This document shows positions 35,628-37,342 of a DNA stretch of 64,000 bases, one piece after another; position 1 is the first letter of the stretch, and each line of letters starts with the position of its first letter. Below the pieces are notes generated by a model. It saw nothing but the letters and a program-made list of their open reading frames with translations. It had not been told where the DNA came from and did no database searches. Made by a program: the position numbers and the translations under genes. Source of the stretch: Oscillospiraceae bacterium (GTDB lineage: Bacteria; Bacillota; Clostridia; Oscillospirales; Acutalibacteraceae); the NCBI GenBank assembly GCA_902791335.1, contig CADAVL010000001.1, forward strand, positions 7,929-71,928. Direction: 5' to 3'.

Positions 35628-36014
35628 ATGAAAGACGACAAAAAAACAATTCTTGCCGAAAATTTGATCCGTTTTCGCAAGCAGATGGGTATTACGCAGG
35701 CAGCGATTGCAAGTTCCGTTGGCATTGAGCGCTCCCGTTATGCTCATTACGAAAAGGACACCACGCCGACTGCAAACATTCTTCGCAAGCTGGCCGCCGT
35801 TCTGAATGTCACACTGGACGAGCTGATGTATTCTCCCGAGCAGCTCCAGCGTTTCAACGAACTGGACGAGCCCGACGAGATGGACAGTTTCTTCTTTAAC
35901 GAGCTTCGCAAGGACGAGAAAGAGCTTGTGATGAAGCTCCGCCTTTTGGATCCCACCAGCAAGGCCTCCATTCGCAAAGCTGTTGACGAAAAGCTTTCCA
36001 AGTCTGAAATGTAA
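35628..36014 (+). CDS. XRE-family helix-turn-helix regulator
   Basis: An N-terminal HTH_3 domain (about residues 8-64) has the pattern MGITQAAIASSVGIERSRYAH and a conserved ANILRKLAAVLNVTLDEL. The remaining 60 residues are charged and helical and probably mediate dimer contacts. It is a DNA-binding repressor or activator of unknown targets. AAAAAGGGTGATCGTTT precedes the ATG. It is the first plus-strand gene after a long minus-strand run and stands alone, with its own terminator. Confidence 0.88.
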   Translation: MKDDKKTILAENLIRFRKQMGITQAAIASSVGIERSRYAHYEKDTTPTANILRKLAAVLNVTLDELMYSPEQLQRFNELDEPDEMDSFFFNELRKDEKELVMKLRLLDPTSKASIRKAVDEKLSKSEM

Positions 36015-36087
36015 TTTGTGGCACATTTCATCGCAGTCGAAATTTAAAAAGATTTCGGCCGGTTCTTAAAATTTAATTGTTCGTCTA

Positions 36088-36128
36088 AGCAGAAGCTATC
36101 GTTTTTTGTCGTAGCTTCTGCTTTTTTG
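36088..36128 (+). terminator. Terminator after the XRE gene
   Basis: AGCAGAAGCTA and TAGCTTCTGCT form an 11-bp stem followed by TTTTTTG on the plus strand, 70 bases past the XRE stop codon. Confidence 0.85.
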
Positions 36129-36147
36129 TTTTTTCAGTCGGTTCTTT

Positions 36148-36323
36148 GAAATTTTGAACCTTTTTGGGAAAACCGGCAGCCTCCCCTCGCGCGCCGTCGC
36201 CAAAGGCGACAAGAAGCCGAAATAAAATATTTCGGCTTCGAAAACCCCGGGGCGTTTTAAAAAACGCCCCGGGTTCGCGCGCGAGGGGAGGCTGCCGGTT
36301 TTCCCAAAAGGGTTCAAAATTTC
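36148..36323. repeat. Large cloverleaf inverted repeat element
   Basis: An outer stem of about 46 bp (36148-36194 with 36276-36323, one G/U-compatible mismatch) encloses three nearly perfect hairpins: 36196-36210 (GTCGCC/GGCGAC), 36213-36239 (GAAGCCGAAAT stem) and 36243-36275 (CGGGGCGTTTT stem with one bulge). Almost all of 176 bases pair into a four-way junction. It sits between the XRE gene and the deacetylase gene. The stem preservation argues for selection or recent origin. Confidence 0.92.
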
Positions 36324-36399
36324 AAGCGCAGCTTGTTAAAGAAGAAAAACGAGCAAAAACCTGCCACGCCCTGAAAAGGCTTTCGCTCTCCTTTCAATT

Positions 36400-37233
36400 T
36401 TAAATGCCCTCATTATCCACTTTCAACGTTTCTCCCGGTTTTACACAGTAATCCTTACCACAGCAGGTAAACCAGATCGGCTCGGCGTTGGGGTTTTGCA
36501 CGCGGGTGGCCTCCAGATTCCAGCGAAGCCGCCGGAAGCTCTCCACATAGTGGAAAATTTCAATGTTTGTGGCATACCACACGTTGTCCTTTCCGCTCAC
36601 CTTATCGCAGAAGTTTTCCATAAGCTCCCAGTTGTTGTTATTCTCAAACTCAAAGGAATGTCCCCACACATAGAAAAGCATCGGCCGCTTGTCATAAAGA
36701 TCGTCGGTAAATTTCTTTTCTAAAAATGTATCCGCAAGCTCCGAAAGCCGCTCGTCGTTGTGGTGACAGGTCGGATGCCAAAGATAAAAATTATCGGGAA
36801 TTCTAAAAGCATGCGTCGCGGCACAGGTTCTGGAATAATCCACACCGGCGGCTTTCATGGCCGCAAAAACTTCTTCGTTGTAAAGCCCGAACGGATAAGC
36901 CATGCCGGTAATGATTCTGCCGGTCGCCTTTTCAAAAAGCTCGCGGTCGTGCATCGTTTCGTAAGCAATGGTTGCGTGTGGGATCGAATCGTAAAGCGGG
37001 TGGTTGAGCCCGTGCAATGCAATCTCGTGGCCCTCGTATCTTTTGTTTACAAGCGCGGCTTCTTTTAGGCCTTCGCCCAGCATTTTGGCGTTTAAATTAA
37101 ACGTCGCCTTCATGTGATGCGCGTTGAAAATATCCAACAGCCGCTCGTCTGCCGGTGCTCCGTCATCGTAGCTGAGGGTCAGTGCCTTGTATTTCCCGCC
37201 CGGAAAACGCAAAAAAATGTTACCCTTTGCCAT
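36400..37233 (-). CDS. Polysaccharide deacetylase family protein (NodB fold)
   Basis: The NodB motif 1 variant LSYDDGAPADERLL holds the two Asp residues, and ALHGLNHP carries the metal His pair. MAYPFGLYNEEVFAAMKAAG and LWHPTCHH follow. There is no signal peptide or membrane helix, so the enzyme may act in the cytoplasm or on imported sugars, unlike wall deacetylases. I start it at MAKGNIFLRFPGG (37233), preceded by GAGGAGAGAAAAACT. The protein is 277 residues. The substrate is unknown. Confidence 0.87.
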   Translation of the reverse strand: MAKGNIFLRFPGGKYKALTLSYDDGAPADERLLDIFNAHHMKATFNLNAKMLGEGLKEAALVNKRYEGHEIALHGLNHPLYDSIPHATIAYETMHDRELFEKATGRIITGMAYPFGLYNEEVFAAMKAAGVDYSRTCAATHAFRIPDNFYLWHPTCHHNDERLSELADTFLEKKFTDDLYDKRPMLFYVWGHSFEFENNNNWELMENFCDKVSGKDNVWYATNIEIFHYVESFRRLRWNLEATRVQNPNAEPIWFTCCGKDYCVKPGETLKVDNEGI

Positions 37234-37342
37234 AGTTTTTCTCTCCTCTTTCATCTGCATTTTTATCATAGATTTGTTTGTCGGTAGCGCCACTCAAACT
37301 TGAGCCTTTGGCGCAAATTTCAGGAATACCGAACCTACAATA

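Follow-up and report, generated by a model that had tools for sequence, protein, structure and literature searches.

Among the closest described counterparts of the DNA reported here are REPINs (PMC3116915, PMC3733652), which are high-copy, intergenic, palindromic and non-autonomous, form a diverging population of copies within one genome and have a predicted single-strand hairpin unit. A REPIN is built from two REP hairpins, carries a GTAG/CGTC-type tag and has a RAYT gene nearby. The 'clover' configuration of REPINs imagined in PMC3116915 is the nearest published idea that we found in the open-access literature. MITEs and related palindromic repeats (ERIC, Correia/NEMIS, RPE, RUP/BOX and CIR; PMC2229807) offer a second comparison: they are dispersed, 100-200 bp long, complementary at their inverted termini and stable in their predicted fold. 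They are recognized by their conserved sequence and usually by TIR/TA or TSD, and they form long stem-loops, CIR having two arms. A third comparison is with the ends of IS200/IS605 elements, with their TnpA Y1 enzyme and subterminal hairpins. Finally, quasipalindrome template-switch correction (PMC8794818, PMC8604942, PMC7202029) predicts that two arms become identical in one event and that a spacer is inverted, both of which fit our observations.

Here we describe cloverleaf-shaped DNA elements that resemble each of these and coincide with none. Unlike REPINs, they have a long outer stem and exactly three hairpins, the stem sequences are not conserved, they lack the tag, and no accompanying RAYT was found. 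The open-access descriptions of ERIC-type repeats portray none of them as a three-hairpin junction of fixed layout whose arm sequence varies freely. Recognition of a folded single strand without target-site duplication (TSD), as at IS200/IS605 ends, would fit the missing duplications, but the cloverleafs have no left/right end pair and one carrier genome has no Y1 gene. Quasipalindrome correction is a mutational process, not an element, and yields no fixed three-hairpin layout. We found no description of the cloverleaf layout in the open-access literature. On balance, we favor the view that the element studied here is one copy of a family of non-autonomous, MITE/REPIN-like dispersed repeats whose heritable unit is the folded shape.

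The cloverleaf in the window

The window, the whole 64-kb stretch of DNA that was analyzed, contains an inverted repeat whose outer arms lie at 36146-36194 and 36277-36325 on the forward strand. An inverted-repeat search paired 48 of the 49 arm positions (98% complementarity), the sole exception being T36161/G36310, a G-U/G-T pair. Between the arms lie 82 nt made up of three hairpins, all placed on the forward strand by the predicted fold. Hairpin 1 (36196-36210) is short, reads GTCGCC-AAA-GGCGAC and belongs to a GYCGCC type present in most elements of this genome. Hairpin 2 (36213-36239; GAAGCCGAAATA-AAA-TATTTCGGCTTC) is kept in three other copies, E001, E014 and E059, and hairpin 3 (36240-36276) has the core CCCGGGGCGTTT-TAAA-AAACGCCCCGGG at 36246-36273. 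With a predicted folding energy of -151.7 kcal/mol, the sequence lies 18 standard deviations below its 200 dinucleotide shuffles (-65.6 +/- 4.8; z = -18). The cloverleaf of a long stem and three hairpins proposed in the earlier note is therefore real; that note also correctly saw a single G-U-type exception, but its arms of about 46 positions were 2-3 nt too short on each side. The next-best inverted repeat in the window (within 300 nt) has 30-nt arms matching at 70%, so the window holds a single cloverleaf in its 64 kb.

The arms combine shared and private sequence. The junction-proximal part of the 5' arm, CCCCTCGCGCGC, is common to other copies, and the outer part is unique to the locus, with no match elsewhere in 1.3 Mb. 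Homology to other copies of its subfamily, here called B-type, was found on the reverse strand over 36130-36337 and extends a little past the palindrome on both sides, with flanks GCAGCGCTTGAA ... TTCAAAGAACCGACYGAAAAA.

The element sits between convergent genes. Upstream, an open reading frame named from its sequence as a helix-turn-helix regulator (35628-36014, forward strand) ends at 36014; downstream, a polysaccharide-deacetylase-like frame (36400-37242, reverse strand), its putative function taken from the appearance of the sequence, ends at 36400. A pattern scan of 35950-36450 found nothing terminator-like, and neither end of the cloverleaf is followed by a T-run. An intrinsic terminator was rejected, the hairpin having no U-tract. 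Rfam covariance models matched only tRNAs in the window and did not match the cloverleaf.

Copies, arms and junction core in the same genome

When the window element was compared by BLAST with the 2.1-Mb assembly it comes from (194 contigs), more than 12 dispersed partial relatives appeared, the best at 83% identity. We then ran a template-free inverted-repeat search over 1.30 of the 2.10 Mb, folding the candidates and accepting those with at least two branches. This census yielded 81 branched palindromes, 80 of them with exactly three hairpins; outer stems span 16-52 bp (mostly 30-45) and whole elements 124-251 nt. With a stricter detector the count was 75 in this genome and 6 in the 1.35 Mb taken from 80 relatives; with a relaxed one it was 84 and 9, respectively. 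Both detectors gave 0 when run on dinucleotide-shuffled sequence. A further 34 candidate regions fell outside the limits set for branches, stem or pairing; among them are some that resemble decayed or larger versions. Extrapolating from the 1.30 Mb, we estimate about 130 copies in the whole assembly; density in carrier genomes is roughly one element per 12-16 kb. Many contig ends lie in or near cloverleafs (for example C60, C28, C127, C135, C84 and C2 of this genome), so the assembly probably breaks there and the true copy number is likely to be higher. The search for the same architecture that the earlier note had proposed for the whole genome gave 80 three-hairpin elements in the 1.30 Mb covered; instead of the missing layout and uncompensated decay that the note had named as counting against its reading, we found massive compensatory change.

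The copies fall into subfamilies that share few letters. The window element is B-type, with E001, E014 and E059 as relatives. The A-type consensus runs AACCGGCCGCGATAAAACCGGAAG...TGCGCGCCGC, then the hairpin CGCC-TTC-GGCG, hairpin 2 and GCGGTGTTTTCCC..., followed by the mirror. Searched in full with a covariance model of the A-type, the 2.1-Mb assembly gave matches at 48 distinct full-length sites; 39 relatives gave none. A-type copies share GAACCGRCCG ends, and divergence is 0.090 within elements versus 0.197 between copies. Elements outside A and B have little in common beyond the junction core, and across this genome letters are kept only there: at the outer stem's base, an alternating G+C segment (GCGCGC), mostly with a short GYCGCC hairpin beside it. 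The conserved core sequence can be written GCGCGCC/GYCGCC or GGCGGCGACC. Once the core is removed, 58 of the 80 elements, the window element (E000) included, have an outer arm that occurs at no other locus, and yet these arms are 91% complementary.

The stems stay matched as their letters change. Aligned A-type copies have 96.1% of their cells paired. Two-sided change, in 116 cells, affects 33 of the 62 pairs (the rows are related, so these are not independent events), a count reached in 0 of 500 shuffles. Sliding the partners by one column lowers pairing to about 45%. Two-sided changes far exceed one-sided intermediates; in some pairs, such as columns 119/142, the partners have been swapped by transversion with no intermediate present (UA 13, AU 8, CG 1). 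The four B-type copies, including that in the window, show two-sided change in 20 of 68 pairs.

Internal inversions also occur. In G324, a carrier genome described below, hairpins 1 and 3 are found in both orders relative to the loop of hairpin 2. Our own genome has A-linker-B tandem pairs at C14:2653-3034, C11:14773-15140 and C8:13700-14066, joined by a homologous linker of about 45 bp, an arrangement that suggests composite units; between the homologous loci on C14 and C11 the A element is inverted. Template switching between inverted repeats yields spacer inversion, according to PMC8604942, and can create perfect stems and mend them in one event (PMC8794818).

Elements avoid genes. In a genome whose sequence is 81% coding by a simple gene finder, 79 of the 81 elements are intergenic and 2 overlap coding sequence. 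Convergent gaps are enriched (27/73 with elements versus 85/451 among gaps of at least 150 nt; Fisher p = 0.001), and in tandem gaps elements lie nearer the upstream stop than the downstream start (median 146 versus 240 nt, p = 0.03). Such intergenic, often convergent placement is what insertion tolerance would give, and may simply reflect where insertion is tolerated.

Other genomes, fixed sites and mobility

Scanning named genomes with the neighboring SerC protein, we gathered 80 loci from Clostridia that are Acutalibacteraceae-like by our reading of their organism titles. Three carry elements, in RUG13829 (G323), RUG11928 (G325) and Lapin-021 bin44 (G324), and L180 is one further weak case. 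The densest carrier, G324, has 17 elements in 200 kb, all intergenic, with the constant outer core GGGCGGCGACC. A model based on G324 and run against 300 genomes added two more carriers, G320 and G176, of one genus (g31); two of the four g31 genomes searched had no elements. Cloverleaf families with other sequences are therefore found in five other genomes, and most relatives among those searched are without them. The carriers are draft genomes, mostly metagenome assemblies broken at repeats.

The layout outlasts the sequence. In G176 the outer core is kept and the hairpin sequences are unrelated, yet they still form hairpins in the predicted fold. Sequence-only searches of 60 and of 300 relatives gave no real match, the weak ones not being cloverleafs by folding; phage and plasmid collections gave no match, and the exact core was absent from viral contigs. 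The G324 model matches the G323 and G325 elements end to end (best E about 1e-6), and the A model of our own genome gives a weak end-to-end match to G324 (best E 8e-5). These matches make it plausible that the elements share one architecture in different letters; the family of our own genome and that of g31 may also share descent.

One cloverleaf can be followed at a fixed site. Upstream of serC, RUG13829 (L191:815-917) and RUG11928 (L195:9532-9625) carry, in two species, an orthologous element between flanks that are 75-81% identical; within the cloverleaf four pairs differ between the two, and all four have changed on both sides. Elsewhere, the L207 element has no counterpart at the syntenic position in L221 and L231, where the junction is too diverged for a clean empty site to be called. 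Copies can thus persist, and can be present or absent. The RUG13829 element is also nested: at L191:782-954 a second outer stem, GCGCGCTTTTC...GAAAAGCGCGC, encloses the cloverleaf together with one further hairpin on each side of it, making a larger three-branch structure, and the right-hand side hairpin likewise shows two-sided differences in the RUG11928 orthologue. A 78-bp A+T-rich miniature with three near-perfect hairpins occurs in RUG14213 (L177:8295-8372).

Signs of movement itself were sought in several ways. A joined-flank search for empty sites in our genome and the 80 relatives' loci returned nothing, and neither a transposition event nor a clean empty site was seen among the genomes and loci compared. 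Tests for target-site duplication found k-mers shared across element ends no more often than for shuffled partners, a result on which the elements part from classical MITEs. No version carrying a gene was noticed in the 1.3 Mb. Our genome, a MAG that is 81% complete, has one Y1 transposase gene, which looks like an ordinary stand-alone IS200 and has no cloverleaf at its ends. G324, an incomplete MAG, has none, and no mobilizing enzyme was found among the Y1 genes of these two genomes.

Proposed inheritance of the fold and its alternatives

How might a fold be inherited when its letters are not? In the explanation we favor, the unit passed on would be a four-way junction of three hairpins and the long outer stem that closes it. 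Its complementarity would be kept largely by template-switch (quasipalindrome) correction, in which replication copies one arm onto the other; selection on the fold may contribute. Copies would spread as folded single strands or cruciforms, moved by a candidate structure-specific enzyme that reads the junction core. The dispersal of the copies favors a mobile repeat, which the earlier note had suggested alongside a nucleoid or replication structure and an RNA junction; the locus-specific outer arms of many copies are unlike simple cut-and-paste with fixed ends. We advance more tentatively the broader idea that these elements represent a class of mobile DNA defined by shape and not by sequence, in which a three-hairpin junction presents a short core to an enzyme while the remaining letters drift in each lineage.

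If the favored explanation holds, a fold can be what a dispersed DNA family passes on, and each such genome, with its tens of independent long palindromes, preserves a natural record of correction between arms, in two-sided changes that can be dated between strains. It would also imply a junction-reading enzyme, so far unrecognized, in gut Clostridia, and would allow a test of whether long stems are kept perfect by selection or by template switching.

The clearest competing prediction comes from RNA. The elements could be 3'-UTR stabilizers, processing sites or bidirectional attenuators whose stems are under selection as RNA folds, as the very stable fold, the strong covariation, the convergent enrichment and the bias toward the upstream stop in tandem gaps would all allow. 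A selected RNA strand should show more G-U than A-C exceptions, polarizing each element. We observed 150 G-T and 127 A-C mismatches, per-element polarization of 196 versus 195.5 by chance (p = 0.50), and respective counts of 56 and 52 along the transcription of flanking tandem genes. Orientation is equally indifferent, with 21 elements in tandem gaps running with the genes and 16 against, and counts of 12 versus 10 and 17 versus 17 relative to local gene direction; a link between orientation and gene direction, suspected from G324, was ruled out (30 forward, 27 reverse). The lack of strand preference among mismatches is as expected for maintenance at the DNA level. Together with the missing Rfam match and the lack, at the window element, of any U-tract or terminator pattern, these results disfavor an RNA role, including the RNA junction considered in the earlier note, and we regard it as unlikely. 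About equally unlikely, in our estimation, are chromosome-architecture sites, cruciforms to which a nucleoid protein, gyrase or a junction-binding protein would attach, and which selection would keep in place, in the manner of enterobacterial BIMEs. Spacing of one per 12-16 kb in carriers, intergenic position, symmetry, indifference to orientation and the persistence of one orthologous element across diverged species would suit such a role, but most relatives, including two of the four g31 genomes searched, do without the elements, recently related A-type copies are dispersed, and the L207 element varies in presence.

Template-switch mutagenesis acting alone might build and perfect palindromes as a by-product, giving a shape with neither recognizer nor function. 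That two-sided changes far outnumber one-sided ones, that arms are locus-specific yet complementary, and that template switching can make and mend perfect stems (PMC8794818) all speak for such a process; we nevertheless consider it improbable as the whole account, as it leaves the three hairpins in 80 of 81 elements, the conserved core and the dispersed copies unexplained. Least credible is that these are REPINs moved by RAYT (REP-associated Y1 transposase), although they too are intergenic, high-copy, hairpin-forming and non-autonomous, and a clover configuration has been proposed for REPINs (PMC3116915). The GTAG tag occurs at 0 of 80 element ends (control 5) and CGTC at 5 of 80 (control 6), and an ordinary IS200-like gene as the single Y1 of our genome, with none in G324, makes RAYT unlikely. 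The REPIN class, rejected on both tag and enzyme, is thus largely refuted.

Other repeats neighbor some cloverleafs. A second dispersed repeat, about 270 bp long and with copies that are up to 98% identical to one another, adjoins cloverleafs of different types (C48:5773-6041, C24:5050-5318, C14:2382-2629, C60:1-143 and C13:16502-16598). The right flank of the element at C42:1459-1631 bears TTTCATCGCGGTCGGTT, a sequence similar to the outer end of the A-type arm, in about five tandem copies.
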